Shown piece after piece: positions 5,145 through 25,160 of a DNA stretch of 64,000 nucleotides. The notes beneath the pieces were generated by a model that saw only the letters and a program-made list of their open reading frames with translations, had not been told where the DNA came from and did no database searches. Each line of letters opens with the position of its first letter. Position 1 is the first letter of the stretch. Source of the stretch: Mytilus galloprovincialis (Eukaryota > Mollusca > Bivalvia > Mytilida > Mytilidae); contig NC_134840.1 of the NCBI RefSeq assembly GCF_965363235.1, positions 92,330,416 to 92,394,415 on the forward strand. Direction: 5' to 3'. Made by a program: the position numbers and the translations under genes.

Positions 5145-5196
5145 AATGAAATCATCGAACCGAAGAATTTGCCTTCGTTTTGATGGAATTTGCCGA
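5145..5196 (+). pseudogene. Truncated kinase fragment at the left edge of the array
   Basis: About 50 bp resemble codons 59-76 of the array kinase (phrases GAAGAATTTGCCTTCG and TTTTGATGGAATT). The kinase sequence then stops and the spacer of unit 1 begins at 5,197. The array edge is therefore a recombination junction inside a kinase gene rather than a natural unit boundary. The reading frame is shifted and the piece cannot be functional. Confidence 0.75.
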
Positions 5197-5766
5197 ATTG
5201 TATGAGGGTACGGTAAACAAAGATGCAATACCAAAATAAAAGGACCCAGTATTATACTTTATAGTCCAGTTTACCGTATCAGCATACAGTTTTTTTGTCT
5301 TCTCTAATCCCGAAACTCGTTGAATAAATTGGAAGCAAATATCCCGTTGAACATTCAGGCAGTGATTTAATATCGTTTAGTTTGTTGTGGTAAACCTTCA
5401 GCGTGCGAAGAAACGGTAAACTGCAGAGTATACTCTTATACTAATTGAGCTACGGTAAACCTTTGATAGAATTTTTATGGTTACGGTAAACATCGCAGTC
5501 ACAAGCTATGGAAAAGTTTATGGTAACGGTAAACATATAAGAAAAATGCCTTAGAAATGTTAACCGTTTGCAAGAGTAGGTACCATTAATGAAAAGGGGA
5601 GCTATTTCCAAAAATGTACTATTTAATTATGTAAGGAAGCATTTATTAAGACTTGTCTCCCCTTGAACATCAAGACATGGAAGAGGCCATATCGGCCGAT
5701 TCACTATATAAGGCTTGCATTTCTCTATTTGGTATCTTTATCACATCACATCCACGCCAGTTTAAA

Positions 5767-6488
5767 ATGGAATTTTTAATGAACAGTGGACTCTCAAATG
5801 TTGTAGCTCTTACTGAAGAAGTTTTCTCTGCCTCTAGCGAAATATTCGGTAAAGTTGCAATAAAGAAAGTCATCAAAACCTCAACTGAGTTTGAAGCTTT
5901 TCTCAGCCTCAAACACGAAAACATCGTCGAAGCCATTGAAATCATCGAAGCCGAAGAATTTGCCTTCGTTTTGATGGAATTCGCTGAATTCGGAGATGTT
6001 TTTGAATACATAATGAAAAACGGTCTCATGTCCGTTGAAGCCACCCTCTCTCTCTTCTCTCAGGTTGTCAAAGCAATCGAATACTGCCACTCAATTGGAA
6101 TCGCCCACAATGACATTAAATTAGAAAACGTCTTGTCTAATGGTTGTGTCAAATTGGCCGACTTTGGATTTGCCAAGTCGTCCGATATTGTTGCCGAATC
6201 TGAAGAATTTTGTGGAACCCTCCCATACGCTGCCCCAGAAGTTATTATGGGAATGGAACACAACACCATGAAAGCCGATATGTGGAGTATGGGAGTTATG
6301 CTCTACGTCATGCTCTTCGGAGCTTTCCCATTCTCCGATAGTGACGCTACCTCTATGGTCCAATCACCCTCTCTTTCCCAGAAAACACTAACGAAACGTT
6401 AAAGTCTCTCATCTCCTCTATGCTTGAACCCTCTATTGAAAAACGCGCTAATGCAAGCTCAGTCCGTCTTGCCTTGAGCCAGTTTTAA
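5767..6488 (+). pseudogene. Kinase copy 1, frameshifted
   Basis: Same start and N-terminal two thirds as the intact copies. It lacks one of two leucine codons after residue 122 (3-nt deletion). A 13-nt deletion after the Met-Val-Gln codons at ~6,360 then shifts the frame, and translation ends at 6,402 after 211 residues with a short unrelated tail. The lost part corresponds to the last ~45 residues (helices G-I of the C-lobe), so a stable kinase is unlikely. The out-of-frame remainder runs to the original stop at 6,488. The 13-nt deletion is shared with copy 3, which shows common descent. Confidence 0.85.
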
Positions 6489-6500
6489 ACACATAATTAA

Positions 6501-6538
6501 GCATCCTTGAAATCACAATGTTGTGATTTCAAGGATGC
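6501..6538 (+). terminator. 3' palindrome of copy 1
   Basis: Two 18-nt arms around a TG centre, followed by C and ten T. It lies 12 nt after the stop position and is identical to the palindrome of copy 2, which is described there. Confidence 0.6.
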
Positions 6539-6933
6539 CTTTTTTTTTTGTCTGAGCTGTTGTTACGGTAAACCGTGTGGACCTTCTTTTAATGTAACTT
6601 GATCAAATACGATATGCGGTTACGGTAAACAAATGTCAACGTTTGGTCTACAGGATTGGCACATCTTTTACTTCTTGTTTTATCAATGAGACACTGCTAA
6701 GTGATTAAGACTATTTGTTAGTCTAGTTTACCGTATCACCAAACAGTCCTTTAACATTTCAGTTTCCCGTTCCTTTGTATTAAATGTTTGAGAAACAAGA
6801 TAAGGATATTGATAGGTAATGTTTCAGGGTTTCTGTCCATTGATATCGAAACATATCAGCCGCGAGCCAGAGAGCTTCACCTTGTGTCGAGCGGCTGAAC
6901 ACCCATAATCTAGGTAAACTAATTGTATGAGGG

Positions 6934-7259
6934 TACGGTAAACAAAGATGCAATACAAAAATAAAAGGACCCAGTATTATACTTTATAGTCCAGTTTACC
7001 GTATCAGCATACAGTTTTTTTGTCTTCTCTAATCCCGAAACTCGTTGAATAAATTGGAAGCAAATATCCCGTTGAACATTCAGGCAGTGATTTAATATCG
7101 TTTAGTTTGTTGTGGTAAACCTTCAGCGTGCGAAGAAACGGTAAACTGCAGAGTATACTCTTATACTAATTGAGCTACGGTAAACCTTTGATAGAATTTT
7201 TATGGTTACGGTAAACATCGCAGTCACAAGCTATGGAAAAGTTTATGGTAACGGTAAAC
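6934..7259 (+). promoter_or_regulatory. Upstream TACGGTAAAC motif cluster (unit 2 as example)
   Basis: Unit 2 has TACGGTAAAC at 6,934, 7,176 and 7,207, the inverted form GTTTACCGTA at 6,994, AACGGTAAAC-type sites at 7,137 and 7,250, and a weaker GGTAAAC at 7,113. The cluster ends ~170 bp before the TATA box. The same arrangement recurs in all ten units. Such density in so short a spacer points to a binding site for a sequence-specific factor. The GTAAACA core in several sites resembles the forkhead-family consensus, but the conserved ACG 5' half is not explained by that. Confidence 0.65.
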
Positions 7260-7429
7260 ATATAAGAAAAATGCCTTAGAAATGTTAACCGTTTGCAAGA
7301 GTAGGTACCATTAATGAAAAGGGGAGCTATTTCCAAAAATGTACTATTTAATTATGTAAGGAAGCATTTATTAAGACTTGTCTCCCCTTGAACATCAAGA
7401 CATGGAAGAGGCCATATCGGCCGATTCAC

Positions 7430-7437
7430 TATATAAG
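7430..7437 (+). promoter_or_regulatory. TATA box of kinase copy 2 (conserved in all units)
   Basis: TATATAAG lies 62 nt before the chosen ATG. Equivalent boxes start at 5,705, 9,171, 10,894, 12,635, 14,370, 16,364, 18,104, 19,840 and 21,578. A start of transcription ~30 nt downstream would give a leader of about 30 nt. It would also exclude the longer in-frame 5' extension seen in some copies. A 5-nt deletion between TATA and ATG in copies 3, 5 and 8 is harmless under this model. Confidence 0.7.
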
Positions 7438-7491
7438 GCTTGCATTTCTCTATTTGGTATCTTTATCACATCACATCCACGCCAGTTTAAA

Positions 7492-8229
7492 ATGGAATTT
7501 TTAATGAACAGTGGACTCTCAAATGTTGTAGCTCTTACTGAAGAAGTTTTCTCTGCCTCTAGCGAAATATTCGGTAAAGTTGCAATAAAGAAAGTCATCA
7601 AAACCTCAACTGAGTTTGAAGCTTTTCTCAGCCTCAAACACGAAAACATCGTCGAAGCCATTGAAATCATCGAAGCCGAAGAATTTGCCTTCGTTTTGAT
7701 GGAATTCGCTGAATTCGGAGATGTTTTTGAATACATAATGAAAAACGGTCTCATGTCCGTTGAAGCCACCCTCTCTCTCTTCTCTCAGGTTGTCAAAGCA
7801 ATCGAATACTGCCACTCAATTGGAATCGCCCACAATGACATTAAATTAGAAAACGTCTTGTTGTCTAATGGTTGTGTCAAATTGGCCGACTTTGGATTTG
7901 CCAAGTCGTCCGATATTGTTGCCGAATCTGAAGAATTTTGTGGAAACCTCCCATACGCTGCCCCAGAAGTTATTATGGGAATGGAACACAACACCATGAA
8001 AGCCGATATGTGGAGTATGGGAGTTATGCTCTACGTCATGCTCTTCGGAGCTTTCCCATTCTCCGATAGTGACGCTACCTCTATGGTCCAATCTCAAATC
8101 TCCAACACCCTCTCTTTCCCAGAAAACACTAACGAAACGTTAAAGTCTCTCATCTCCTCTATGCTTGAACCCTCTGTTGAAAAACGCGCTAATGCAAGCT
8201 CAGTCCGTCTTGCCTTGAGCCAGTTTTAA
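7492..8229 (+). CDS. Compact non-RD Ser/Thr protein kinase, copy 2 (intact)
   Basis: A 245-residue protein that is almost nothing but a kinase catalytic domain; the fold resembles the CAMK/SNF1-AMPK type. The glycine loop is degenerate (residues 6-13: Asn-x-Gly-x-x-Asn-x-Val). The ATP-binding lysine is in VAIK (Lys33). The catalytic loop is HNDIKLEN (114-121), with Asp116 and Asn121 kept but Arg of HRD replaced by Asn. DFG is at 133-135 and AAPE at 156-159. Where AMPK-type kinases carry the activating threonine this protein has Glu148. No tail, signal peptide or membrane segment is visible. There is no intron. The start is ATG 7,492 because the TATA box is only 62 nt upstream and copies 3, 5 and 8 break the frame above it. 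This copy and copy 4 have Asn instead of Thr152 in the P+1 loop, which may weaken substrate binding. The substrate is unknown. Confidence 0.9.
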   Translation: MEFLMNSGLSNVVALTEEVFSASSEIFGKVAIKKVIKTSTEFEAFLSLKHENIVEAIEIIEAEEFAFVLMEFAEFGDVFEYIMKNGLMSVEATLSLFSQVVKAIEYCHSIGIAHNDIKLENVLLSNGCVKLADFGFAKSSDIVAESEEFCGNLPYAAPEVIMGMEHNTMKADMWSMGVMLYVMLFGAFPFSDSDATSMVQSQISNTLSFPENTNETLKSLISSMLEPSVEKRANASSVRLALSQF

Positions 8230-8241
8230 ACACATAATTAA

Positions 8242-8279
8242 GCATCCTTGAAATCACAATGTTGTGATTTCAAGGATGC
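8242..8279 (+). terminator. 3' palindrome plus T-run after kinase copy 2
   Basis: The arm GCATCCTTGAAATCACAA is followed by TG and then its exact reverse complement (18-bp stem, 2-nt centre), then CC and ten T. It begins 12 nt after the stop codon. It looks like an intrinsic terminator, which is unexpected downstream of an animal mRNA gene. It could act in 3'-end formation, mRNA stability, polymerase III-type termination on the T-run, or small-RNA production. It does not match the short stem-loop of replication-dependent histone mRNAs. The inverted repeat is certain; the function is inferred. Confidence 0.65.
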
Positions 8280-8304
8280 CTTTTTTTTTTGTCTGAGCTG
8301 TTGT

Positions 8305-8476
8305 TACGGTAAACCGTGCGGACCTTCTTTTAATGTAACTTGATCAAATACGATATGCGGTTACGGTAAACAAATGTCAACGTTTGGTCTACAGGATTGG
8401 CACATCTTTTACTTCTTGTTTTATCAATGAGACACTGCTAAGTGATTAAGACTATTTGTTAGTCTAGTTTACCGTA
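8305..8476 (+). promoter_or_regulatory. Downstream TACGGTAAAC motif cluster (unit 2 as example)
   Basis: TACGGTAAAC occurs at 8,305 and 8,362, and the inverted GTTTACCGTA at 8,467. The inverted site sits in TAGTCTAGTTTACCGTATCA, closely matching TAGTCCAGTTTACCGTATCA around the inverted site at 6,994. Both spacers therefore contain a convergent pair (TACGGTAAACAAA ... GTTTACCGTATCA), an old duplication inside the unit. Confidence 0.6.
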
Positions 8477-9227
8477 TCACCAAACAGTCCTTTAACATTT
8501 CAGTTTCCCGTTCCTTTGTATTAAATGTTTGAGAAACAAGATAAGGATATTGATAGGTAATGTTTCAGGGTTTCTGTCCATTGATATCGAAACATATCAG
8601 CCGCGAGCCAGAGAGCTTCACCTTGTGTCGAGCGGCTGAACACCCATAATCTAGGTAAACTAATTGTATGAGGGTACGGTAAACAAAGATGCAATACCAA
8701 AATAAAAGGACCCAGTATTATACTTTATAGTCCAGTTTACCGTATCAGCATACAGTTTTTTTGTCTTCTCTAATCCCGAAACTCGTTGAATAAATTGGAA
8801 GCAAATATCCCGTTGAACATTCAGGCAGTGATTTAATATCGTTTAGTTTGTTGTGGTAAACCTTCAGCGTGCGAAGAAACGGTAAACTGCAGAGTATACT
8901 CTTATACTAATTGAGCTACGGTAAACCTTTGATAGAATTTTTATGGTTACGGTAAACATCGCAGTCACAAGCTATGGAAAAGTTTATGGTAACGGTAAAC
9001 ATATAAGAAAAATGCCTTAGAAATGTTAACCGTTTGCAAGAGTAGGTACCATTAATGAAAAGGGGAGCTATTTCCAAAAATGTACTATTTAATTATGTAA
9101 GGAAGCATTTATTAAGACTTGTCTCCCCTTGAACATCAAGACATGGAAGAGGCCATATCGGCCGATTCACTATATAAGGCTTGCATTTCTCTATTTGGTA
9201 TCTTTATCATATCCACGCCAGTTTAAA

Positions 9228-9952
9228 ATGGAATTTTTAATGAACAGTGGACTCTCAAATGTTGTAGCTCTTACTGAAGAAGTTTTCTCTGCCTCTAGCG
9301 AAATATTCGGTAAAGTTGCAATAAAGAAAGTCATCAAAACCTCAACTGAGTTTGAAGCTTTTCTCAGCCTCAAACACGAAAACATCGTCGAAGCCATTGA
9401 AATCATCGAAGCCGAAGAATTTGCCTTCGTTTTGATGGAATTCGCTGAATTCGGAGATGTTTTTGAATACATAATGAAAAACGGTCTCATGTCCGTTGAA
9501 GCCACCCTCTCTCTCTTCTCTCAGGTTGTCAAAGCAATCGAATACTGCCACTCAATTGGAATCGCCCACAATGACATTAAATTAGAAAACGTCTTGTTGT
9601 CTAATGGTTGTGTCAAATTGGCCGACTTTGGATTTGCCAAGTCGTCCGATATTGTTGCCGAATCTGAAGAATTTTGTGGAACCCTCCCATACGCTGCCCC
9701 AGAAGTTATTATGGGAATGGAACACAACACCATGAAAGCCGATATGTGGAGTATGGGAGTTATGCTCTACGTCATGCTCTTCGGAGCTTTCCCATTCTCC
9801 GATAGTGACGCTACCTCTATGGTCCAATCACCCTCTCTTTCCCAGAAAACACTAACGAAACGTTAAAGTCTCTCATCTCCTCTATGCTTGAACCCTCTAT
9901 TGAAAAACGCGCTAATGCAAGCTCAGTCCGTCTTGCCTTGAGCCAGTTTTAA
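9228..9952 (+). pseudogene. Kinase copy 3, frameshifted
   Basis: Has the 5-nt leader deletion shared with copies 5 and 8, and the 13-nt coding deletion plus Val-to-Ile change shared with copy 1. Translation ends at 9,866 after 212 residues; the original stop position is 9,952. The catalytic motifs are present but the end of the C-lobe is lost. Having features of both groups, it looks like a product of recombination or gene conversion between units. Confidence 0.85.
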
Positions 9953-9964
9953 ACACATAATTAA

Positions 9965-10002
9965 GCATCCTTGAAATCACAATGTTGTGATTTCAAGGAT
10001 GC
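9965..10002 (+). terminator. 3' palindrome of copy 3
   Basis: Identical 38-nt palindrome, followed by CC and ten T, retained although the gene upstream is broken. Confidence 0.6.
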
Positions 10003-10955
10003 CTTTTTTTTTTGTCTGAGCTGTTGTTACGGTAAACCGTGTGGACCTTCTTTTAATGTAACTTGATCAAATACGATATGCGGTTACGGTAAACAAATGT
10101 CAACGTTTGGTCTACAGGATTGGCACATCTTTTACTTCTTGTTTTATCAATGAGACACTGCTAAGTGATTAAGACTATTTGTTAGTCTAGTTTACCGTAT
10201 CACCAAACAGTCCTTTAACATTTCAGTTTCCCGTTCCTTTGTATTAAATGTTTGAGAAACAAGATAAGGATATTGATAGGTAATGTTTCAGGGTTTCTGT
10301 CCATTGATATCGAAACATATCAGCCGCGAGCCAGAGAGCTTCACCTTGTGTCGAGCGGCTGAACACCCATAATCTAGGTAAACTAATTGTATGAGGGTAC
10401 GGTAAACAAAGATGCAATACAAAAATAAAAGGACCCAGTATTATACTTTATAGTCCAGTTTACCGTATCAGCATACAGTTTTTTTGTCTTCTCTAATCCC
10501 GAAACTCGTTGAATAAATTGGAAGCAAATATCCCGTTGAACATTCAGGCAGTGATTTAATATCGTTTAGTTTGTTGTGGTAAACCTTCAGCGTGCGAAGA
10601 AACGGTAAACTGCAGAGTATACTCTTATACTAATTGAGCTACGGTAAACCTTTGATAGAATTTTTATGGTTACGGTAAACATCGCAGTCACAAGCTATGG
10701 AAAAGTTTATGGTAACGGTAAACATATAAGAAAAATGCCTTAGAAATGTTAACCGTTTGCAAGAGTAGGTACCATTAATGAAAAGGGGAGCTATTTCCAA
10801 AAATGTACTATTTAATTATGTAAGGAAGCATTTATTAAGACTTGTCTCCCCTTGAACATCAAGACATGGAAGAGGCCATATCGGCCGATTCACTATATAA
10901 GGCTTGCATTTCTCTATTTGGTATCTTTATCACATCACATCCACGCCAGTTTAAA

Positions 10956-11693
10956 ATGGAATTTTTAATGAACAGTGGACTCTCAAATGTTGTAGCTCTT
11001 ACTGAAGAAGTTTTCTCTGCCTCTAGCGAAATATTCGGTAAAGTTGCAATAAAGAAAGTCATCAAAACCTCAACTGAGTTTGAAGCTTTTCTCAGCCTCA
11101 AACACGAAAACATCGTCGAAGCCATTGAAATCATCGAAGCCGAAGAATTTGCCTTCGTTTTGATGGAATTCGCTGAATTCGGAGATGTTTTTGAATACAT
11201 AATGAAAAACGGTCTCATGTCCGTTGAAGCCACCCTCTCTCTCTTCTCTCAGGTTGTCAAAGCAATCGAATACTGCCACTCAATTGGAATCGCCCACAAT
11301 GACATTAAATTAGAAAACGTCTTGTTGTCTAATGGTTGTGTCAAATTGGCCGACTTTGGATTTGCCAAGTCGTCCGATATTGTTGCCGAATCTGAAGAAT
11401 TTTGTGGAAACCTCCCATACGCTGCCCCAGAAGTTATTATGGGAATGGAACACAACACCATGAAAGCCGATATGTGGAGTATGGGAGTTATGCTCTACGT
11501 CATGCTCTTCGGAGCTTTCCCATTCTCCGATAGTGACGCTACCTCTATGGTCCAATCTCAAATCTCCAACACCCTCTCTTTCCCAGAAAACACTAACGAA
11601 ACGTTAAAGTCTCTCATCTCCTCTATGCTTGAACCCTCTGTTGAAAAACGCGCTAATGCAAGCTCAGTCCGTCTTGCCTTGAGCCAGTTTTAA
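10956..11693 (+). CDS. Compact non-RD kinase, copy 4 (intact)
   Basis: 245 residues, with the same encoded protein as copy 2, including the Asn at position 152. The whole unit appears identical to unit 2 by eye. Together with unit 3 it repeats the unit 1-2 dimer, so it arose by a ~3.46-kb block duplication (or, less likely, an assembly duplication). TATA box at 10,894. Confidence 0.88.
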   Translation: MEFLMNSGLSNVVALTEEVFSASSEIFGKVAIKKVIKTSTEFEAFLSLKHENIVEAIEIIEAEEFAFVLMEFAEFGDVFEYIMKNGLMSVEATLSLFSQVVKAIEYCHSIGIAHNDIKLENVLLSNGCVKLADFGFAKSSDIVAESEEFCGNLPYAAPEVIMGMEHNTMKADMWSMGVMLYVMLFGAFPFSDSDATSMVQSQISNTLSFPENTNETLKSLISSMLEPSVEKRANASSVRLALSQF

Positions 11694-11705
11694 ACACATA
11701 ATTAA

Positions 11706-11743
11706 GCATCCTTGAAATCACAATGTTGTGATTTCAAGGATGC
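11706..11743 (+). terminator. 3' palindrome of copy 4
   Basis: Identical 38-nt palindrome, CC, ten T. Confidence 0.6.
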
Positions 11744-12691
11744 CTTTTTTTTTTGTCTGAGCTGTTGTTACGGTAAACCGTGCGGACCTTCTTTTAATGT
11801 AACTTGATCAAATACGATATGCGGTTACGGTAAACAAATGTCAACGTTTGGTCTACAGGATTGGCACATCTTTTACTTCTTGTTTTATCAATGAGACACT
11901 GCTAAGTGATTAAGACTATTTGTTAGTCTAGTTTACCGTATCACCAAACAGTCCTTTAACATTTCAGTTTCCCGTTCCTTTGTATTAAATGTTTGAGAAA
12001 CAAGATAAGGATATTGATAGGTAATGTTTCAGGGTTTCTGTCCATTGATATCGAAACATATCAGCCGCGAGCCAGAGAGCTTCACCTTGTGTCGAGCGGC
12101 TGAACACCCATAATCTAGGTAAACTAATTGTATGAGGGTACGGTAAACAAAGATGCAATACCAAAATAAAAGGACCCAGTATTATACTTTATAGTCCAGT
12201 TTACCGTATCAGCATACAGTTTTTTTGTCTTCTCTAATCCCGAAACTCGTTGAATAAATTGGAAGCAAATATCCCGTTGAACATTCAGGCAGTGATTTAA
12301 TATCGTTTAGTTTGTTGTGGTAAACCTTCAGCGTGCGAAGAAACGGTAAACTGCAGAGTATACTCTTATACTAATTGAGCTACGGTAAACCTTTGATAGA
12401 ATTTTTATGGTTACGGTAAACATCGCAGTCACAAGCTATGGAAAAGTTTATGGTAACGGTAAACATATAAGAAAAATGCCTTAGAAATGTTAACCGTTTG
12501 CAAGAGTAGGTACCATTAATGAAAAGGGGAGCTATTTCCAAAAATGTACTATTTAATTATGTAAGGAAGCATTTATTAAGACTTGTCTCCCCTTGAACAT
12601 CAAGACATGGAAGAGGCCATATCGGCCGATTCACTATATAAGGCTTGCATTTCTCTATTTGGTATCTTTATCATATCCACGCCAGTTTAAA

Positions 12692-13429
12692 ATGGAATTT
12701 TTAATGAACAGTGGACTCTCAAATGTTGTAGCTCTTACTGAAGAAGTTTTCTCTGCCTCTAGCGAAATATTCGGTAAAGTTGCAATAAAGAAAGTCATCA
12801 AAACCTCAACTGAGTTTGAAGCTTTTCTCAGCCTCAAACACGAAAACATCGTCGAAGCCATTGAAATCATCGAAGCCGAAGAATTTGCCTTCGTTTTGAT
12901 GGAATTCGCTGAATTCGGAGATGTTTTTGAATACATAATGAAAAACGGTCTCATGTCCGTTGAAGCCACCCTCTCTCTCTTCTCTCAGGTTGTCAAAGCA
13001 ATCGAATACTGCCACTCAATTGGAATCGCCCACAATGACATTAAATTAGAAAACGTCTTGTTGTCTAATGGTTGTGTCAAATTGGCCGACTTTGGATTTG
13101 CCAAGTCGTCCGATATTGTTGCCGAATCTGAAGAATTTTGTGGAACCCTCCCATACGCTGCCCCAGAAGTTATTATGGGAATGGAACACAACACCATGAA
13201 AGCCGATATGTGGAGTATGGGAGTTATGCTCTACGTCATGCTCTTCGGAGCTTTCCCATTCTCCGATAGTGACGCTACCTCTATGGTCCAATCTCAAATC
13301 TCCAACACCCTCTCTTTCCCAGAAAACACTAACGAAACGTTAAAGTCTCTCATCTCCTCTATGCTTGAACCCTCTGTTGAAAAACGCGCTAATGCAAGCT
13401 CAGTCCGTCTTGCCTTGAGCCAGTTTTAA
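12692..13429 (+). CDS. Compact non-RD kinase, copy 5 (intact)
   Basis: 245 residues with the majority sequence (Thr152 present), so I treat this copy as the reference form. The leader carries the 5-nt deletion, so the in-frame upstream extension of other copies is lost while the coding part is untouched. This is direct evidence that translation starts at the Met of this CDS. TATA box at 12,635, 57 nt upstream. Confidence 0.9.
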   Translation: MEFLMNSGLSNVVALTEEVFSASSEIFGKVAIKKVIKTSTEFEAFLSLKHENIVEAIEIIEAEEFAFVLMEFAEFGDVFEYIMKNGLMSVEATLSLFSQVVKAIEYCHSIGIAHNDIKLENVLLSNGCVKLADFGFAKSSDIVAESEEFCGTLPYAAPEVIMGMEHNTMKADMWSMGVMLYVMLFGAFPFSDSDATSMVQSQISNTLSFPENTNETLKSLISSMLEPSVEKRANASSVRLALSQF

Positions 13430-13441
13430 ACACATAATTAA

Positions 13442-13479
13442 GCATCCTTGAAATCACAATGTTGTGATTTCAAGGATGC
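13442..13479 (+). terminator. 3' palindrome of copy 5
   Basis: Identical 38-nt palindrome, CC, nine T. Confidence 0.6.
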
Positions 13480-14431
13480 CTTTTTTTTTGTCTGAGCTGT
13501 TGTTACGGTAAACCGTGCGGACCTTCTTTTAATGTAACTTGATCAAATACGATATGCGGTTACGGTAAACAAATGTCAACGTTTGGTCTACAGGATTGGC
13601 ACATCTTTTACTTCTTGTTTTATCAATGAGACACTGCTAAGTGATTAAGACTATTTGTTAGTCTAGTTTACCGTATCACCAAACAGTCCTTTAACATTTC
13701 AGTTTCCCGTTCCTTTGTATTAAATGTTTGAGAAACAAGATAAGGATATTGATAGGTAATGTTTCAGGGTTTCTGTCCATTGATATCGAAACATATCAGC
13801 CGCGAGCCAGAGAGCTTCACCTTGTGTCGAGCGGCTGAACACCCATAATCTAGGTAAACTAATTGTATGAGGGTACGGTAAACAAAGATGCAATACAAAA
13901 ATAAAAGGACCCAGTATTATACTTTATAGTCCAGTTTACCGTATCAGCATACAGTTTTTTTGTCTTCTCTAATCCCGAAACTCTTTGAATAAATTGGAAG
14001 CAAATATCCCGTTGAACATTCAGGCAGTGATTTAATATCGTTTAGTTTGTTGTGGTAAACCTTCAGCGTGCGAAGAAACGGTAAACTGCAGAGTATACTC
14101 TTATACTAATTGAGCTACGGTAAACCTTTGATAGAATTTTTATGGTTACGGTAAACATCGCAGTCACAAGCTATGGAAAAGTTTATGGTAACGGTAAACA
14201 TATAAGAAAAATGCCTTAGAAATGTTAACCGTTTGCAAGAGTAGGTACCATTAATGAAAAGGGGAGCTATTTCCAAAAATGTACTATTTAATTATGTAAG
14301 GAATCATTTATTAAGACTTGTCTCCCCTTGAACATCAAGACATGGAAGAGGCCATATCGGCCGATTCACTATATAAGGCTTGCATTTCTCTATTTGGTAT
14401 CTTTATCACATCACATCCACGCCAGTTTAAA

Positions 14432-15423
14432 ATGGAATTTTTAATGAACAGTGGACTCTCAAATGTTGTAGCTCTTACTGAAGAAGTTTTCTCTGCCTCT
14501 AGCGAAATATTCGGTAAAGTTGCAATAAAGAAAGTCATCAAAACCTCAACTGAGTTTGAAGCTTTTCTCAGCCTCAAACACGAAAACATCGTCGAAGCCA
14601 TTGAAATCATCGAAGCCGAAGAATTTGCCTTCGTTTTGATGGAATTCGCTGTATTTGGTATCTTTATCACATCACATCCACGCCAGTTTAAAATGGAATT
14701 TTTAATGAACAGTGGACTCTCAAATGTTGTAGCTCTTACTGAAGAAGTTTTCTCTGCCTCTAGCGAAATATTCGGTAAAGTTGCAATAAAGAAAGTCATC
14801 AAAACCTCAACTGAGTTTGAAGCTTTTCTCAGCCTCAAACACGAAAACATCGTCGAAGCCATTGAAATCATCGAAGCCGAAGAATTTGCCTTCGTTTTGA
14901 TGGAATTCGCTGAATTCGGAGATGTTTTTGAATACATAATGAAAAACGGTCTCATGTAGCCACCCTCTCTCTCTTCTCTCAGGTTGTCAAAGCAATCGAA
15001 TACTGCCACTCAATTGGAATCGCCCACAATGACATTAAATTAGAAAACGTCTTGTTGTCTAATGGTTGTGTCAAATTGGCCGACTTTGGATTTGCCAAGT
15101 CGTCCGATATTGTTGCCGAATCTGAAGAATTTTGTGGAACCCTCCCATACGCTGCCCCAGAAGTTATTATGGGAATGGAACACAACACCATGAAAGCCGA
15201 TATGTGGAGTATGGGAGTTATGCTCTACGTCATGCTCTTCGGAGCTTTCCCATTCTCCGATAGTGACGCTACCTCTATGGTCCAATCTCAAATCTCCAAC
15301 ACCCTCTCTTTCCCAGAAAACACTAACGAAACGTTAAAGTCTCTCATCTCCTCTATGCTTGAACCCTCTGTTGAAAAACGCGCTAATGCAAGCTCAGTCC
15401 GTCTTGCCTTGAGCCAGTTTTAA
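14432..15423 (+). pseudogene. Kinase copy 6, internal duplication plus premature stop
   Basis: A 261-bp segment from leader to codon ~73 (14,391-14,651) is repeated directly at 14,652-14,912. The duplication keeps the frame, so the N-lobe is present twice. A 7-nt deletion after the next Leu-Met codons then makes a TAG at 14,957-14,959 and ends the ORF before the catalytic loop. The remainder (catalytic loop to C-terminus, to 15,423) is open in its own frame but has no promoter. Non-functional as a kinase; a truncated double N-lobe protein is conceivable. Confidence 0.88.
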
Positions 15424-15435
15424 ACACATAATTAA

Positions 15436-15473
15436 GCATCCTTGAAATCACAATGTTGTGATTTCAAGGATGC
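15436..15473 (+). terminator. 3' palindrome of copy 6
   Basis: Identical 38-nt palindrome, CC, nine T, retained despite the broken ORF. Confidence 0.6.
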
Positions 15474-16425
15474 CTTTTTTTTTGTCTGAGCTGTTGTTAC
15501 GGTAAACCGTGCGGACCTTCTTTTAATGTAACTTGATCAAATACGATATGCGGTTACGGTAAACAAATGTCAACGTTTGGTCTACAGGATTGGCACATCT
15601 TTTACTTCTTGTTTTATCAATGAGACACTGCTAAGTGATTAAGACTATTTGTTAGTCTAGTTTACCGTATCACCAAACAGTCCTTTAACATTTCAGTTTC
15701 CCGTTCCTTTGTATTAAATGTTTGAGAAACAAGATAAGGATATTGATAGGTAATGTTTCAGGGTTTCTGTCCATTGATATCGAAACATATCAGCCGCGAG
15801 CCAGAGAGCTTCACCTTGTGTCGAGCGGCTGAACACCCATAATCTAGGTAAACTAATTGTATGAGGGTACGGTAAACAAAGATGCAATACAAAAATAAAA
15901 GGACCCAGTATTATACTTTATAGTCCAGTTTACCGTATCAGCATACAGTTTTTTTGTCTTCTCTAATCCCGAAACTCTTTGAATAAATTGGAAGCAAATA
16001 TCCCGTTGAACATTCAGGCAGTGATTTAATATCGTTTAGTTTGTTGTGGTAAACCTTCAGCGTGCGAAGAAACGGTAAACTGCAGAGTATACTCTTATAC
16101 TAATTGAGCTACGGTAAACCTTTGATAGAATTTTTATGGTTACGGTAAACATCGCAGTCACAAGCTATGGAAAAGTTTATGGTAACGGTAAACATATAAG
16201 AAAAATGCCTTAGAAATGTTAACCGTTTGCAAGAGTAGGTACCATTAATGAAAAGGGGAGCTATTTCCAAAAATGTACTATTTAATTATGTAAGGAAGCA
16301 TTTATTAAGACTTGTCTCCCCTTGAACATCAAGACATGGAAGAGGCCATATCGGCCGATTCACTATATAAGGCTTGCATTTCTCTATTTGGTATCTTTAT
16401 CACATCACATCCACGCCAGTTTAAA

Positions 16426-17163
16426 ATGGAATTTTTAATGAACAGTGGACTCTCAAATGTTGTAGCTCTTACTGAAGAAGTTTTCTCTGCCTCTAGCGAA
16501 ATATTCGGTAAAGTTGCAATAAAGAAAGTCATCAAAACCTCAACTGAGTTTGAAGCTTTTCTCAGCCTCAAACACGAAAACATCGTCGAAGCCATTGAAA
16601 TCATCGAAGCCGAAGAATTTGCCTTCGTTTTGATGGAATTCGCTGAATTCGGAGATGTTTTTGAATACATAATGAAAAACGGTCTCATGTCCGTTGAAGC
16701 CACCCTCTCTCTCTTCTCTCAGGTTGTCAAAGCAATCGAATACTGCCACTCAATTGGAATCGCCCACAATGACATTAAATTAGAAAACGTCTTGTTGTCT
16801 AATGGTTGTGTCAAATTGGCCGACTTTGGATTTGCCAAGTCGTCCGATATTGTTGCCGAATCTGAAGAATTTTGTGGAACCCTCCCATACGCTGCCCCAG
16901 AAGTTATTATGGGAATGGAACACAACACCATGAAAGCCGATATGTGGAGTATGGGAGTTATGCTCTACGTCATGCTCTTCGGAGCTTTCCCATTCTCCGA
17001 TAGTGACGCTACCTCTATGGTCCAATGTCAAATCTCCAACACCCTCTCTTTCCTAGAAAACACTAACGAAACGTTAAAGTCTCTCATCTCCTCTATGCTT
17101 GAACCCTCTGTTGAAAAACGCGCTAATGCAAGCTCAGTCCGTCTTGCCTTGAGCCAGTTTTAA
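16426..17163 (+). CDS. Compact non-RD kinase, copy 7 (intact)
   Basis: 245 residues; differs from the majority form by Ser201Cys and Pro210Leu near the end of the C-lobe, away from the catalytic motifs. It shares the spacer variant ACTCTTTGAA with units 6 and 8, placing it in that subgroup. TATA box at 16,364. Confidence 0.88.
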   Translation: MEFLMNSGLSNVVALTEEVFSASSEIFGKVAIKKVIKTSTEFEAFLSLKHENIVEAIEIIEAEEFAFVLMEFAEFGDVFEYIMKNGLMSVEATLSLFSQVVKAIEYCHSIGIAHNDIKLENVLLSNGCVKLADFGFAKSSDIVAESEEFCGTLPYAAPEVIMGMEHNTMKADMWSMGVMLYVMLFGAFPFSDSDATSMVQCQISNTLSFLENTNETLKSLISSMLEPSVEKRANASSVRLALSQF

Positions 17164-17175
17164 ACACATAATTAA

Positions 17176-17213
17176 GCATCCTTGAAATCACAATGTTGTG
17201 ATTTCAAGGATGC
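17176..17213 (+). terminator. 3' palindrome of copy 7
   Basis: Identical 38-nt palindrome, CC, nine T. Confidence 0.6.
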
Positions 17214-18160
17214 CTTTTTTTTTGTCTGAGCTGTTGTTACGGTAAACCGTGCGGACCTTCTTTTAATGTAACTTGATCAAATACGATATGCGGTTACGGT
17301 AAACAAATGTCAACGTTTGGTCTACAGGATTGGCACATCTTTTACTTCTTGTTTTATCAATGAGACACTGCTAAGTGATTAAGACTATTTGTTAGTCTAG
17401 TTTACCGTATCACCAAACAGTCCTTTAACATTTCAGTTTCCCGTTCCTTTGTATTAAATGTTTGAGAAACAAGATAAGGATATTGATAGGTAATGTTTCA
17501 GGGTTTCTGTCCATTGATATCGAAACATATCAGCCGCGAGCCAGAGAGCTTCACCTTGTGTCGAGCGGCTGAACACCCATAATCTAGGTAAACTAATTGT
17601 ATGAGGGTACGGTAAACAAAGATGCAATACAAAAATAAAAGGACCCAGTATTATACTTTATAGTCCAGTTTACCGTATCAGCATACAGTTTTTTTGTCTT
17701 CTCTAATCCCGAAACTCTTTGAATAAATTGGAAGCAAATATCCCGTTGAACATTCAGGCAGTGATTTAATATCGTTTAGTTTGTTGTGGTAAACCTTCAG
17801 CGTGCGAAGAAACGGTAAACTGCAGAGTATACTCTTATACTAATTGAGCTACGGTAAACCTTTGATAGAATTTTTATGGTTACGGTAAACATCGCAGTCA
17901 CAAGCTATGGAAAAGTTTATGGTAACGGTAAACATATAAGAAAAATGCCTTAGAAATGTTAACCGTTTGCAAGAGTAGGTACCATTAATGAAAAGGGGAG
18001 CTATTTCCAAAAATGTACTATTTAATTATGTAAGGAAGCATTTATTAAGACTTGTCTCCCCTTGAACATCAAGACATGGAAGAGGCCATATCGGCCGATT
18101 CACTATATAAGGCTTGCATTTCTCTATTTGGTATCTTTATCATATCCACGCCAGTTTAAA

Positions 18161-18898
18161 ATGGAATTTTTAATGAACAGTGGACTCTCAAATGTTGTAG
18201 CTCTTACTGAAGAAGTTTTCTCTGCCTCTAGCGAAATATTCGGTAAAGTTGCAATAAAGAAAGTCATCAAAACCTCAACTGAGTTTGAAGCTTTTCTCAG
18301 CCTCAAACACGAAAACATCGTCGAAGCCATTGAAATCATCGAAGCCGAAGAATTTGCCTTCGTTTTGATGGAATTCGCTGAATTCGGAGATGTTTTTGAA
18401 TACATAATGAAAAACGGTCTCATGTCCGTTGAAGCCACCCTCTCTCTCTTCTCTCAGGTTGTCAAAGCAATCGAATACTGCCACTCAATTGGAATCGCCC
18501 ACAATGACATTAAATTAGAAAACGTCTTGTTGTCTAATGGTTGTGTCAAATTGGCCGACTTTGGATTTGCCAAGTCGTCCGATATTGTTGCCGAATCTGA
18601 AGAATTTTGTGGAACCCTCCCATACGCTGCCCCAGAAGTTATTATGGGAATGGAACACAACACCATGAAAGCCGATATGTGGAGTATGGGAGTTATGCTC
18701 TACGTCATGCTCTTCGGAGCTTTCCCATTCTCCGATAGTGACGCTACCTCTATGGTCCAATCTCAAATCTCCAACACCCTCTCTTTCCCAGAAAACACTA
18801 ACGAAACGTTAAAGTCTCTCATCTCCTCTATGCTTGAACCCTCTGTTGAAAAACGCGCTAATGCAAGCTCAGTCCGTCTTGCCTTGAGCCAGTTTTAA
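18161..18898 (+). CDS. Compact non-RD kinase, copy 8 (intact)
   Basis: 245 residues with the majority protein sequence, the same as copy 5, and with the same 5-nt leader deletion. The upstream spacer instead matches units 6-7, another sign of mixing between units. TATA box at 18,104. Confidence 0.9.
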   Translation: MEFLMNSGLSNVVALTEEVFSASSEIFGKVAIKKVIKTSTEFEAFLSLKHENIVEAIEIIEAEEFAFVLMEFAEFGDVFEYIMKNGLMSVEATLSLFSQVVKAIEYCHSIGIAHNDIKLENVLLSNGCVKLADFGFAKSSDIVAESEEFCGTLPYAAPEVIMGMEHNTMKADMWSMGVMLYVMLFGAFPFSDSDATSMVQSQISNTLSFPENTNETLKSLISSMLEPSVEKRANASSVRLALSQF

Positions 18899-18910
18899 AC
18901 ACATAATTAA

Positions 18911-18948
18911 GCATCCTTGAAATCACAATGTTGTGATTTCAAGGATGC
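18911..18948 (+). terminator. 3' palindrome of copy 8
   Basis: Identical 38-nt palindrome, CC, ten T. Confidence 0.6.
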
Positions 18949-19901
18949 CTTTTTTTTTTGTCTGAGCTGTTGTTACGGTAAACCGTGCGGACCTTCTTTT
19001 AATGTAACTTGATCAAATACGATATGCGGTTACGGTAAACAAATGTCAACGTTTGGTCTACAGGATTGGCACATCTTTTACTTCTTGTTTTATCAATGAG
19101 ACACTGCTAAGTGATTAAGACTATTTGTTAGTCTAGTTTACCGTATCACCAAACAGTCCTTTAACATTTCAGTTTCCCGTTCCTTTGTATTAAATGTTTG
19201 AGAAACAAGATAAGGATATTGATAGGTAATGTTTCAGGGTTTCTGTCCATTGATATCGAAACATATCAGCCGCGAGCCAGAGAGCTTCACCTTGTGTCGA
19301 GCGACTGAACACCCATAATCTAGGTAAACTAATTGTATGAGGGTACGGTAAACAAAGATGCAATACAAAAATAAAAGGACCCAGTATTATACTTTATAGT
19401 CCAGTTTACCGTATCAGCATACAGTTTTTTTGTCTTCTCTAATCCCGAAACTCGTTGAATAAATTGGAAGCAAATATCCCGTTGAACATTCAGGCAGTGA
19501 TTTAATATCGTTTAGTTTGTTGTGGTAAACCTTCAGCGTGCGAAGAAACGGTAAACTGCAGAGTATACTCTTATACTAATTGAGCTACGGTAAACCTTTG
19601 ATAGAATTTTTATGGTTACGGTAAACATCGCAGTCACAAGCTATGGAAAAGTTTATGGTAACGGTAAACATATAAGAAAAATGCCTTAGAAATGTTAACC
19701 GTTTGCAAGAGTAGGTACCATTAATGAAAAGGGGAGCTATTTCCAAAAATGTACTATTTAATTATGTAAGGAAGCATTTATTAAGACTTGTCTCCCCTTG
19801 AACATCAAGACATGGAAGAGGCCATATCGGCCGATTCACTATATAAGGCTTGCATTTCTCTATTTGGTATCTTTATCACATCACATCCACGCCAGTTTAA
19901 A

Positions 19902-20637
19902 ATGGAATTTTTAATGAACAGTGGACTCTCAAATGTTGTAGCTCTTACTGAAGAAGTTTTCTCTGCCTCTAGCGAAATATTCGGTAAAGTTGCAATAAAG
20001 AAAGTCATCAAAACCTCAACTGAGTTTGAAGCTTTTCTCAGCCTCAAACACGAAAACATCGTCGAAGCCATTGAAATCATCGAAGCCGAAGAATTTGCCT
20101 TCGTTTTGATGGAATTCGCTGAATTCGGAGATGTTTTTGAATACATAATGAAAAACGGTCTCATGTCCGTTGAAGCCACCCTCTCTCTCTTCTCTCAGGT
20201 TGTCAAAGCAATCGAATACTGCCACTCAATTGGAATCGCCCACAATGACATTAAATTAGAAAACGTCTTGTTGTCTAATGGTTGTGTCAAATTGGCCGAC
20301 TTTGGATTTGCCAAGTCGTCCGATATTGTTGCCGAATCTGAAGAATTTTGTGGAACCCTCCCATACGCTGCCCCAGAAGTTATTATGGGAATGGAACACA
20401 ACACCATGAAAGCCGATATGTGGAGTATGGGAGTTATGCTCTACGTCATGCTCTTCGGAGCTTTCCCATTCTCCGATAGTGACGCTACCTCTATGGTCCA
20501 ATCTCAAATCTCCAACACCCTCTCTTTCCCAGAAAACACTAACGAAACGTTAAAGTCTCTCATCTCCTCTATTTGAAACCTCTGTTGAAAAACGCGCTAA
20601 TGCAAGCTCAGTCCGTCTTGCCTTGAGCCAGTTTTAA
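19902..20637 (+). pseudogene. Kinase copy 9, C-terminal frameshift
   Basis: All catalytic motifs are intact. A net 2-nt loss at the Met-Leu codons near 20,572 brings in a TGA at 20,574-20,576, giving 224 residues instead of 245. The missing piece is the final C-lobe helix with its conserved arginine region, so folding is probably impaired, though a residual product cannot be excluded. The original stop would be at 20,637. Confidence 0.8.
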
Positions 20638-20649
20638 ACACATAATTAA

Positions 20650-20687
20650 GCATCCTTGAAATCACAATGTTGTGATTTCAAGGATGC
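20650..20687 (+). terminator. 3' palindrome of copy 9
   Basis: Identical 38-nt palindrome, CC, nine T. Confidence 0.6.
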
Positions 20688-21639
20688 CTTTTTTTTTGTC
20701 TGAGCTGTTGTTACGGTAAACCGTGCGGACCTTCTTTTAATGTAACTTGATCAAATACGATATGCGGTTACGGTAAACAAATGTCAACGTTTGGTCTACA
20801 GGATTGGCACATCTTTTACTTCTTGTTTTATCAATGAGACACTGCTAAGTGATTTAGACTATTTGTTAGTCTAGTTTACCGTATCACCAAACAGTCCTTT
20901 AACATTTCAGTTTCCCGTTCCTTTGTATTAAATGTTTGAGAAACAAGATAAGGATATTGATAGGTAATGTTTCAGGGTTTCTGTCCATTGATATCGAAAC
21001 ATATCAGCCGCGAGCCAGAGAGCTTCACCTTGTGTCGAGCGGCTGAACACCCATAATCTAGGTAAACTAATTGTATGAGGGTACGGTAAACAAAGATGCA
21101 ATACCAAAATAAAAGGACCCAGTATTATACTTTATAGTCCAGTTTACCGTATCAGCATACAGTTTTTTTGTCTTCTCTAATCCCGAAACTCGTTGAATAA
21201 ATTGGAAGCAAATATCCTGTTGAACATTCAGGCAGTGATTTAATATCGTTTAGTTTGTTGTGGTAAACCTTCAGCGTGCGAAGAAACGGTAAACTGCAGA
21301 GTATACTCTTATACTAATTGAGCTACGGTAAACCTTTGATAGAATTTTTATGGTTACGGTAAACATCGCAGTCACAAGCTATGGAAAAGTTTATGGTAAC
21401 GGTAAACATATAAGAAAAATACCTTAGAAATGTTAACCGTTTGCAAGAGTAGGTACCATTAATGAAAAGGGGAGCTATTTCCAAAAATGTACTATTTAAT
21501 TATGTAAGGAAGCATTTATTAAGACTTGTCTCCCCTTGAACATCAAGACATGGAAGAGGCCATATCGGCCGATTCACTATATAAGGCTTGCATTTCTCTA
21601 TTTGGTATCTTTATCACATCACATCCACGCCAGTTTAAA

Positions 21640-22377
21640 ATGGAATTTTTAATGAACAGTGGACTCTCAAATGTTGTAGCTCTTACTGAAGAAGTTTTCT
21701 CTGCCTCTAGCGAAATATTCGGTAAAGTTGCAATAAAGAAAGTCATCAAAACCTCAACTGAGTTTGAAGCTTTTCTCAGCCTCAAACACGAAAACATCGT
21801 CGAAGCCATTGAAATCATCGAAGCCAAAGAATTTGCCTTCGTTTTGATGGAATTCGCTGAATTCGGAGATGTTTTTGAATACATAATGAAAAACGGTCTC
21901 ATGTCCGTTGAAGCCACCCTCTCTCTCTTCTCTCAGGTTGTCAAAGCAATCGAATACTGCCACTCAATTGGAATCGCCCACAATGACATTAAATTAGAAA
22001 ACGTCTTGTTGTCTAATGGTTGTGTCAAATTGGCCGACTTTGGATTTGCCAAGTCGTCCGATATTGTTGCCGAATCTGAAGAATTTTGTGGAACCCTCCC
22101 ATACGCTGCCCCAGAAGTTATTATGGGAATGGAACACAACACCATGAAAGCCGATATGTGGAGTATGGGAGTTATGCTCTACGTCATGCTCTTCGGAGCT
22201 TTCCCATTCTCCGATAGTGACGCTACCTCTATGGTCCAATCTCAAATCTCCAACACCCTCTCTTTCCCAGAAAACACTAACGAAACGTTAAAGTCTCTCA
22301 TCTCCTCTATGCTTGAACCCTCTGTTGAAAAACGCGCTAATGCAAGCTCAGTCCGTCTTGCCTTGAGCCAGTTTTAA
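21640..22377 (+). CDS. Compact non-RD kinase, copy 10 (intact)
   Basis: 245 residues; majority sequence except Glu63Lys in the N-lobe. It is the last full unit. Its downstream spacer is more diverged (for example TACGATAAAC and TACGGTAAGC in place of the exact motif), as expected at an array edge that escapes homogenisation. TATA box at 21,578. Confidence 0.88.
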   Translation: MEFLMNSGLSNVVALTEEVFSASSEIFGKVAIKKVIKTSTEFEAFLSLKHENIVEAIEIIEAKEFAFVLMEFAEFGDVFEYIMKNGLMSVEATLSLFSQVVKAIEYCHSIGIAHNDIKLENVLLSNGCVKLADFGFAKSSDIVAESEEFCGTLPYAAPEVIMGMEHNTMKADMWSMGVMLYVMLFGAFPFSDSDATSMVQSQISNTLSFPENTNETLKSLISSMLEPSVEKRANASSVRLALSQF

Positions 22378-22389
22378 ACACATAATTAA

Positions 22390-22405
22390 GCATCCTTAAG
22401 GATGC
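22390..22405 (+). terminator. Shortened 3' palindrome of copy 10
   Basis: GCATCCTTAAGGATGC is an exact 16-nt palindrome that keeps only the outer 8 nt of each arm. The central 22 nt are missing symmetrically and ten T follow. Either the hairpin core was lost by replication slippage across the stem, or this is an ancestral short form. Confidence 0.6.
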
Positions 22406-22894
22406 TTTTTTTTTTGTCTGAGCTGTTGTTACGATAAACCGTGCGGACCTTCTTTTAATGTAACGATCAAATACGATATGCGGTTACGGTAAGCAAATGT
22501 TAATGTTTGGTCTACATTCCTTCTTTAAGGATTGGCACATCTTTTTGTTTTATCAATGAGACACTGCTAAGTGATTAAGACTATTTGTTAGTCTAGTTTA
22601 CCGTATCACCAAACAATCCTTTAATATTTCAGTTTCCCGTTTCTTTGTATTAAATGTTTGAGAAACAAGATAAGGATATTAATAGGTAATGATTTCAGGG
22701 TTTCTGTCCATTGATATCGAAACATATCAACCGCGAGCCAGAGAGCCTTACCTTGTGTCGAGCGGCTGAACACCCATAATCTCTTATTTCTTTCACTATT
22801 CGCCCCCTCTTTTGAACTGGTTTGCGCTTGACAAAAGTAGGCCTGACAACGTCTTGTGACGTCGCTGATAACTTCTCCTCAAACACTATGACGT

Positions 22895-23193
22895 GTAAGG
22901 GGAGCTATTCACAAAAATGTATTATTTTATTATGTAAGGAAGCATTTATTAAGACTTGTCAACCCTTGAACATCAAGACATGGAAGAGGCCATACCAGCC
23001 GATTCACTATTATAAGGCTTGCATTATATTACATATTTGGTATCTTTATTACATCACAGCCACGCCAGTTTAAAATGGAATTTTTAATGAACAGTGGACT
23101 CTCAAATGTTGTAGCTCTTACTGAAGAAGTTTTCTCTACCTCTAACGAAATATTCGGTAAAGTTGCAATAAAGAAAGTCATCAAAACCTCTAC
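22895..23193 (+). pseudogene. Kinase copy 11, left part, split by a transposon
   Basis: Starts with the AGGGGAGCTATT leader sequence, has a mutated TATA box (CTATTATAAGG), and reads the kinase from ATG 23,075 through VAIK to codon ~39. It stops at the TCTAC target site of the 3.69-kb element; only a few codons resume after 26,888. The preceding 22,781-22,894 is unrelated to the unit. Decayed and interrupted. Confidence 0.85.
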
Positions 23194-23431
23194 CACAGTG
23201 AGGTTTTGATGAACGGAACTTTACGGTTTTCTAATAATTTGGTCATTCGGGAGACTGTCAAGCGGGGCTCCGACATTTGCAAAATAACAAGTTGCTTGAT
23301 GGGAACTTTGATGAACTCTTATGTTCCTATATAACGTTTCTGCTTCAAGCTTTGATAGCTAAAACATTCTTTATGTAAATATGAACCAATAAAATAATAA
23401 GAAAGATATATGCATCCAAACGTTTTTCTCA

Positions 23432-23592
23432 CAGTGGCGGATCCAGAAATTTTCATAAGTGGGGGCCCACTGACTGACCTAAGAGGGGGCCGGCTCCAGT
23501 CACGCTTCAGTGATTCCCTATATAAGCAACCAAATTTTTTCCCAAAAAGGGGGGGGGCTCGGGCCCCTTCCCCCCCCCTAAATCCGCCTCTG
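23432..23592 (+). mobile_element. Small hAT-like MITE, copy 2 (161 bp), nested in the left arm
   Basis: Closely similar to the element at 3,585-3,748, with the same CAGTGGCGG start and CCGCCTCTG end. The right arm of the foldback element (near 26,150) lacks it and so gives the empty site. The ORF at 23,410-23,598 lies within the repeat and is not a gene. Confidence 0.85.
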
Positions 23593-24039
23593 CCTTAGAA
23601 TGGTGGAGCTCAGTGTAAAACGATCAAATTGTCACACAACAGCGATCAAAAATGTCAAATAATCATCGAAAAATCAATGTTTGCTACCTGAATTTTCACA
23701 TGTACCTTTTCTGATATATTGTCTTACCTGTCTGAAAGTTTTGTCCAAGTAGAAATCCAAATATATTCATTTTCTCCATGTCGGATATTTTTATTGACTG
23801 TACAATAGCTCGCAAGTTTACTGTAATATCACTCGGAGCCTTCCTGTACAATCGCTTGGAGCTTTCCTGTAGAATTGCTTGGCCAAATTTATTAAATATA
23901 TTGCATATGCATTGCATTGGTTGTTTCTTGCTGTCCTATTATATTCATTTATGGTATTTGAAGTGAAAATAAGCACAAAACCAGTCAGGCATTTTGACAA
24001 TTAAGATTCTATCAAGGAACCCTTTTAAGGTGACTATAT

Positions 24040-24929: not shown

Positions 24930-25160
24930 CAATATAAAAGTAAGGAGATGTGATATGATTGTCAAAGCTCAAAAAATAAATGGATTTAAGCAATTATAGT
25001 TGGCTATAAAAGGTCCCGACATGAAAAATAAGAATCAATACCTTTCGAATTTAACTGACGGCCTAATTCATATTAAAACAATTTACGAAAAACATACATG
25101 ACAGACATGAACCAACGACAACCACTGAACTACGGGCTATTGACTTGAAACAAGTACATA
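24930..25160 (+). repeat. Dispersed repeat R2, second fragment in the element centre
   Basis: Matches the R2 pattern (GGAGATGTGATATGATTGTC, TGACAGACATGAACCAACGA, CAACCACTGAACTACGGGC). At 25,290-25,440 a further GGATCC-ended segment resembles a worn hAT-like MITE. Confidence 0.65.

Follow-up and report, generated by a model that had tools for sequence, protein, structure and literature searches.

A tandem array of a compact TSSK-related kinase gene in Mytilus galloprovincialis and a second, unlinked array of the same family

Structure of the kinase array

The stretch of DNA analysed (the window) comprises 64,000 nucleotides of the Mytilus galloprovincialis genome (assembly GCF_965363235.1, contig NC_134840.1, forward-strand positions 92,330,416 to 92,394,415). 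Ten tandem head-to-tail units (U1-U10) of a small intronless kinase gene, about 1.74 kb each, occupy positions 5200-22783 of the window. The encoded protein carries the kinase domain PF00069 (Pfam, 176.5 bits). An intact open reading frame (ORF) of 245 codons, counted from the second ATG, was found in six of the ten units (U2, U4, U5, U7, U8 and U10) and a disrupted one in U1, U3, U6 and U9; U6 is extended to 1,994 bp by an internal duplication of 261 bp. An initial annotation of this DNA had proposed a compact, intronless and homogenised tandem kinase gene with its own promoter and 3' hairpin, and these features were confirmed. The derived active site, the TSSK ancestry and the second array described below were not part of that annotation. 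U8 was used as the reference unit. Feature coordinates are listed in Table 1.

The second ATG is likely the translation start, because the upstream ATG is not conserved in a second array (it is missing in the copy compared; see below) and because a 5-bp deletion disrupts the upstream frame of U3, U5 and U8 but spares the 245-codon ORF of U5 and U8. Pairwise identity, with gaps excluded, was 99.7-100% among U1-U9 and 98.8-99.0% between U10 and these nine. U2 is identical to U4, and a 13-bp deletion is common to U1 and U3 along with further variants, which points to a duplicated two-unit block. The variant sites of the units fail the four-gamete test; sequence has therefore been exchanged among copies.

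Remnants were found on both sides of the array. A truncated kinase fragment lies at its left edge, and a decayed unit piece and an older unit relic lie to its right, so the array formerly extended beyond its present limits. Divergence grows toward the right edge, from U10 through the decayed piece (91% identical) to the relic (75-90%), and this is the pattern expected for an array with a homogenised interior. An inserted element sits between the decayed piece and the older relic, with inverted arms at 23211-23398 and 26690-26877 and nested inverted repeats within. A possible 5-bp target duplication of this element, TCTAC, was noted by eye. One short repeat (AGTGGCGGATCCAGAAATTT...AAATCCGCCTCT) is copied on both sides of the array, at 3590-3752 and 23433-23595.

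Genome-wide search

The assembly searched has 331 contigs (1.385 Gb in all), of which the 112-Mb one carrying the window is called C3 here. Of 221 candidates in a protein search of the complete assembly, 150 were scored and 94 matches listed, so that counts of weak matches are lower bounds. A second, unlinked array was found on C1 at 45.763-45.813 Mb. It contains 18 copies, 12 of them intact, spaced mostly by 1,854 bp with two longer interruptions. Both arrays together comprise 28 units, 10 of which are broken. Frames in one of the C1 interruptions look retrotransposon-like by eye. The 562-bp region 5' of the U8 start codon gave 29 genome matches, all of them scored, corresponding to the ten units, the decayed piece and the 18 C1 copies; at the sensitivity of the search the promoter region is unique to the two arrays and the remnant.

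Outside both arrays, long matches were at most 38% identical among the matches listed. No single-copy parent gene was identified among six other kinase loci of the same genome, and none of these has the repeated motif described below. One of the six, L112, has no usable frame and was not among the rows of the tree that included these loci. A match of 53 residues at C10:30912774-30912932, 60% identical to the kinase and interrupted by three stops, is perhaps an old relic. Three near-identical kinase-like ORFs of 268 amino acids (aa), about 21-26 kb apart, lie on C9 (L109, L110 and L111, at 56.406, 56.428 and 56.454 Mb); they carry HRDITPSN instead of HRDLKxxN and form a very long tree branch.

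Non-coding elements of the units

The TATA box TATATAAGG was found 5' of the ORF in all ten units and at a single fixed distance in 16 of the 18 C1 copies. The motif ACGGTAAAC occurs nine times in each of U1-U9 and seven times in U10. Its total in the window is 89 (88 within the array and one within the older relic), where 100 shuffles gave 0.38 on average, and the 738-bp ORF of U8 contains none. When one unit per array was aligned, the motif was conserved at 7 of 9 sites; of 837 non-coding 9-mers taken as background, 55 were conserved. Both aligned segments were cut at one of these seven sites, which leaves 6 of 8 as independent. Intervals between C1 copies share a make-up of seven direct and two inverted motifs in 12 of 17 cases.

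Paired ACGGTAAAC gave 112 matches genome-wide, most of those listed being in the two arrays, and a reversed control pattern gave 212. A shared regulon was rejected as an explanation, since the control pattern is the commoner and clusters elsewhere therefore mean little. Nine other stretches with paired motifs are made up of other repeats, and their ORFs of at least 80 aa showed no kinase-like frame. Another repeat array (L100, C3:12.262-12.271 Mb) has units of about 1.15 kb in both orientations; it contains a recurring 97-aa frame and motif pairs at a distance of 22 bp. As a text string the motif also turns up in 193 papers, to which no weight is given here.

A 38-nt hairpin followed by a T tract is present in nine of the ten units (U1-U9), and U10 has a shorter version. 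With TATA box, clustered motif, intronless ORF and hairpin, the units are laid out as minigenes complete in themselves. The hairpin stands 8-12 nt past the stop codon in both arrays, with 17 pairs here and 26 on C1. On C1, 17 of 18 copies have it; an insertion extends the stem, and an A-to-G change in two copies preserves pairing. The hexamer ATTAAA occurs 272-291 nt past the stop codon in all ten units here, and 10 of 17 C1 copies have neither AATAAA nor ATTAAA in the 500 nt after the stop. No family reached its gathering score in an Rfam scan of the window, and histone families were absent among the 11 weak hits in U8 (expect value up to 5). Replication-dependent histone genes are also tandem and intronless, with a TATA box and a hairpin soon after the stop codon. 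The mussel units resemble them in layout, but their hairpin differs from the histone stem-loop. A histone-like 3' end was considered for U10, whose hairpin allows a drawing with a stem of 6 bp and a loop of 4 nt and is followed by GAGCTGT. It was rejected, since the second array does not conserve this chance heptamer and no histone Rfam family was matched.

Sequence divergence and selection

With one unit per array aligned, the coding sequences were 93.0% identical, the upstream regions 64.1% and the downstream regions 67.4%. Majority sequences of the intact copies (six from this array, 12 from C1) differed by 31.5 synonymous and 19.5 non-synonymous changes, corresponding to a non-synonymous divergence (dN) of 0.035, a synonymous divergence (dS) of 0.233 and a dN/dS of 0.148. 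Purifying selection has therefore acted on the kinase protein ever since the arrays split. Two outcomes named in the initial annotation as contrary to its proposal, a single gene copy and a dN/dS near 1, were thus not seen: the assembly even holds a second array, and the ratio between the two is low. Coding identity among intact copies is at least 99.6% in each array. The two unlinked arrays evolve concertedly, and the protein and the control elements are kept while other non-coding DNA drifts.

Nineteen array-diagnostic residues were compared with records of other species. The M. trossulus record (P0002) was of the C3 type at 19 of 19, and that of M. edulis (P0015) was of the C1 type at 11 of 17 and of the C3 type at one. 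For M. coruscus, P0021 was of the C1 type at 13 of 16, and P0016 had 9 residues of the C3 type and 5 of the C1 type among 18. By these residues the two array types seem to predate M. trossulus, M. edulis and M. coruscus, though P0016 is mixed. The G+C content at third codon positions (GC3) is 0.46 in each array, and two other window ORFs have 0.26-0.28; the elevated value is consistent with high expression.

Neutral amplification was also weighed, in which a satellite-like repeat would carry the gene by chance and its copies would decay at random. The broken copies, the very recent duplications (U2 and U4) and the lack of a synonymous excess within arrays would all be expected from it: coding differences were six non-synonymous and no synonymous in this array (79% non-synonymous expected at random), and three and one among the 12 intact C1 copies. 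It is nevertheless improbable given the between-array dN/dS, the conservation of control elements between arrays, the catalytic residues retained in full-length relatives and the presence of both array sequence types in other Mytilus records.

Phylogenetic placement

The closest proteins are from Mytilus and comprise a 48-member cluster represented by M. trossulus (99% identical) and records of M. coruscus and M. edulis. Relatives of full length, 68-82% identical and mostly on contigs of 1-2 kb, retain the catalytic residues. A search from the nearest outside relative added compact kinases of 253-269 aa, of which the named ones are from molluscs (Haliotis, Tegillarca). In later trees, built from hand-picked rows, the family and these mollusc kinases were joined with support of 92/95, 97/96 and 99/96. 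The joint branch lay inside the group of testis-specific serine kinases (TSSK; 99/98), which was separated from a CIPK/Snf1 outgroup (100/100). The family stem is long, at 1.19-1.28 changes per column. Judged by these trees, the NCBI label 'TSSK3-like' is right by ancestry, and the family is a divergent offshoot that fails several TSSK features. It has in common with the Haliotis and Tegillarca branch its ancestry, its compact size and a Ser/Thr kinase fold.

Viral, phage and bacterial origins were tried and rejected. One scan of viral contigs gave no close relative and another gave one locus at 27% identity; tblastn against phages gave 28 records, all below 60% identity (24-33% in the 20 listed); and a scan of prokaryote contigs gave only 51 distant kinase loci, at 23-54% in the best segment. 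Near-identical repeats are error-prone in assembly, and the GC3 of the array differs from that of two neighbouring ORFs. An assembly artefact or foreign (viral or bacterial) sequence is nonetheless scarcely credible: the units differ at shared, phylogenetically structured sites, the second array is in the same assembly, relatives occur in three Mytilus species, viral contigs hold no close relative and prokaryote contigs only distant kinases, and the trees place the kinase among animal TSSKs. Open-licence PMC literature on Mytilus TSSK kinases or testis-specific ampliconic kinase arrays gave no description of this array. A testis kinase, TSTK1, is reported from M. edulis in the accessible part of PMC3144882.

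Active site and structural model

Lys33, Glu41, Asp116, Lys118, Asn121 and the DFG motif were invariant in 16 of 16 aligned sequences. According to the available sections of a study of scallop Tssk genes (PMC8042308), the ATP-binding Lys and the catalytic Asp occur in all Tssks studied, and a Gly-rich ATP-binding loop in five of six Tssk subfamilies. The array kinase keeps the Lys and the Asp (Lys33 and Asp116) and lacks the TSSK loop, HRD arginine and activation-loop Thr. The Gly-rich loop is absent from all 21 of the 23 relatives that cover the region, the HRD arginine is absent from 23 of 23, and Glu stands at the activation-loop Thr position (Glu148) in 23 of 23. Among 272 other hits, pattern matching found HRD in 262 and the activation-loop Thr in 213; the patterns for the Gly-rich loop were crude, and the loop of at least two further kinases (P0056 and P0064) escaped them. 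All three changes map to the family stem.

A structure model from a 66-row alignment gave a confident kinase fold, with a predicted local distance difference test score (pLDDT) of 93.2 and a predicted template modelling score (pTM) of 0.90; with 16 relatives alone the pLDDT had been a poor 58.7. The best structural neighbours of the confident model were CaMKII, DCLK1, DAPK and AMPK. A short LTEE turn replaces the Gly-rich loop in the model, between strands 9-14 and 19-24.

Loss of the loop makes a pseudokinase a serious rival. Such a protein, or a dominant-negative scaffold, would bind TSSK partners or substrates without phosphorylating them, in keeping with the missing loop and HRD arginine and with the LTEE turn. 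In other animals Tssk5 likewise has no ATP-binding stretch, and the mouse protein may be inactive (PMC8042308, sections as above). A scaffold would not need the invariant catalytic residues, however, and we hold this reading to be a minority possibility.

Interpretation

The reading preferred here, to which we give a probability of about 45%, is that of a germline kinase derived from TSSK and freed from phosphorylation control, with its output set by gene dosage, in two concertedly evolving arrays. Glu148 would mimic a phosphorylated activation loop, and the HRD arginine would no longer be needed to hold the phosphate. Such a kinase would need no activating kinase and could not be switched off by a phosphatase. 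Its activity would follow the amount of protein, which array copy number and C-rich third codon positions would raise. Amplification may supply dosage during a short window of male germ-cell differentiation, and the hairpin and T tract may help to define the mRNA 3' end. A germline role fits TSSK ancestry. The proposed timing and place were taken by analogy from scallop, in which Tssk transcripts build up in spermatids and sperm (PMC8042308, sections as above). Replacement of phosphorylation control by dosage control, the boldest reading, is consistent with all the sequence evidence.

Several points weigh against it. The chief worry is the loss of the Gly-rich loop, which could mean weak or no catalysis. 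Glu148 and the missing HRD arginine argue for an apparently always-on kinase by sequence alone. With 10 of 28 copies broken and no synonymous excess within this array, individual copies show no constraint and look dispensable; the family as a whole does not. Ordinary polyadenylation may operate here, with ATTAAA in all ten units. A first tree (76 rows, without mollusc relatives) placed the family outside a 22-row TSSK clade, and the GC3 comparison rests on two ORFs only.

Known systems were compared with the mussel arrays. Scallop has five single Tssk genes, in contrast to the tandemly amplified mussel kinase, and introns can be absent from animal TSSKs elsewhere, as in Tssk3 and Tssk7 of scallop (PMC8042308, sections as above). 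The initial annotation held that such arrays are not typical of catalytic kinases; mouse Smok, a multi-gene family of sperm kinases, is a precedent in the accessible text of PMC9863905. Smok and Smok-Tcr of the t-haplotype are multi-copy male-germline Ser/Thr kinases, and are likened to the mussel arrays by description only. The nearest tandem analogue is Drosophila Stellate with Suppressor of Stellate, which also has tandem homogenised copies with their own promoter in two independently amplified arrays (PMC7874207, excerpts). Stellate is a homologue of the CK2 beta regulatory subunit, has introns, is X-linked and is repressed by Y-linked Piwi-interacting RNAs (PMC7874207, excerpts). The mussel arrays, in contrast, encode a catalytic-type kinase domain (PF00069) and are intronless, and nothing in the sequence examined pointed to a silencing array.

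If the locus were selfish or a driver, as with Stellate or Smok/Tcr, its copies would owe their amplification to biased transmission or to antagonism toward a homologous array, with the two unlinked arrays as opponents. A multi-copy, homogenised, germline-type kinase in two diverged arrays, the long family stem, the decaying array edge and the inserted elements could all be read in this way, and the Smok kinases form a multi-gene family within a known drive system (PMC9863905, accessible text). The between-array dN/dS of 0.15 is purifying and not that of an arms race, and each array has intact ORFs in sense orientation within its units, 6 of 10 here and 12 of 18 on C1. The selfish locus suggested in the initial annotation found no direct support, no antisense or suppressor-like array being seen in what was examined, and drive is unlikely.

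A fuller form of the dosage reading is doubtful. In it, the lineage would have swapped phosphorylation control for gene-dosage control, with the loop and the HRD arginine lost and the Glu fixed on one ancestral branch; the two homogenised mussel arrays would be older than several Mytilus species, possibly opposed in sperm competition or drive, and would produce a hairpin-terminated transcript. The combination is unusual, although an amplified germline gene and a TSSK-derived kinase are each of an already known kind. If the dosage reading is true, the arrays would offer a natural test of signalling-enzyme regulation by copy number alone, in a phosphomimetic kinase amplified like a histone gene, and a natural counterpart of engineered T-to-E kinases. 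They would also provide, in a marine genus that has been studied widely, a copy-number polymorphism for correlation with sperm traits, and a system for concerted evolution between two unlinked arrays.

Feature coordinates and flanking sequence

Table 1. Features of the kinase array and its edges (window positions).
Feature	Position	Strand	Remark
Truncated kinase fragment, left array edge	5147..5199	+	BLASTN of U8 against flanks, 94% over 54 columns
U1	5200..6924	+	ORF from 5767 broken, 211 aa
U2	6925..8665	+	Intact 245-codon ORF 7492-8229; 100% identical to U4
U3	8666..10388	+	ORF from 9228 broken, 212 aa; 13-bp deletion in common with U1
U4	10389..12129	+	Intact ORF 10956-11693
U5	12130..13864	+	Intact ORF 12692-13429
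U6	13865..15858	+	ORF broken by 261-bp duplication, 14391-14916
U7	15859..17598	+	Intact ORF 16426-17163
U8 (reference unit)	17599..19334	+	Intact ORF 18161-18898
Upstream ACGGTAAAC cluster of U8	17609..17933	+	Sites 17609, 17668 (inverted), 17812, 17851, 17882, 17925
TATA box TATATAAGG of U8	18104..18112	+	About 57 bp ahead of start codon
3' hairpin of U8	18911..18948	+	12 nt past stop codon, then T tract
Downstream ACGGTAAAC sites of U8	18975..19144	+	18975, 19032, 19136 (inverted)
U9	19335..21072	+	ORF from 19902 broken, 224 aa
U10 (edge unit)	21073..22783	+	Intact ORF 21640-22377; shorter hairpin
Short hairpin of U10	22390..22405	+	
Decayed unit piece (promoter and ORF start)	~22897..23193	+	91% over 297 columns
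Inserted element inside decayed array edge	23211..26877		188-nt inverted arms, 95% complementary
Older unit relic	~26906..27298	+	Pieces 75-90% identical; one ACGGTAAAC at 27233

Further features lie elsewhere in the window. A 268-codon ORF on the minus strand (57753-58559) has no Pfam match. Frames at 31655-32971, 47744 and 48584 resemble PEX6; one of them was checked against Pfam and gave no match. A 56-bp tandem repeat of 4.1 copies lies at 38740-38968 and translates into a sequence like an AAA-ATPase Walker A region; a coding exon seems to be repeated here in tandem and out of frame. Further tandem repeats were found at 44718-45337 (147 bp, 4.2 copies) and 1154-1442 (144 bp, 2 copies).

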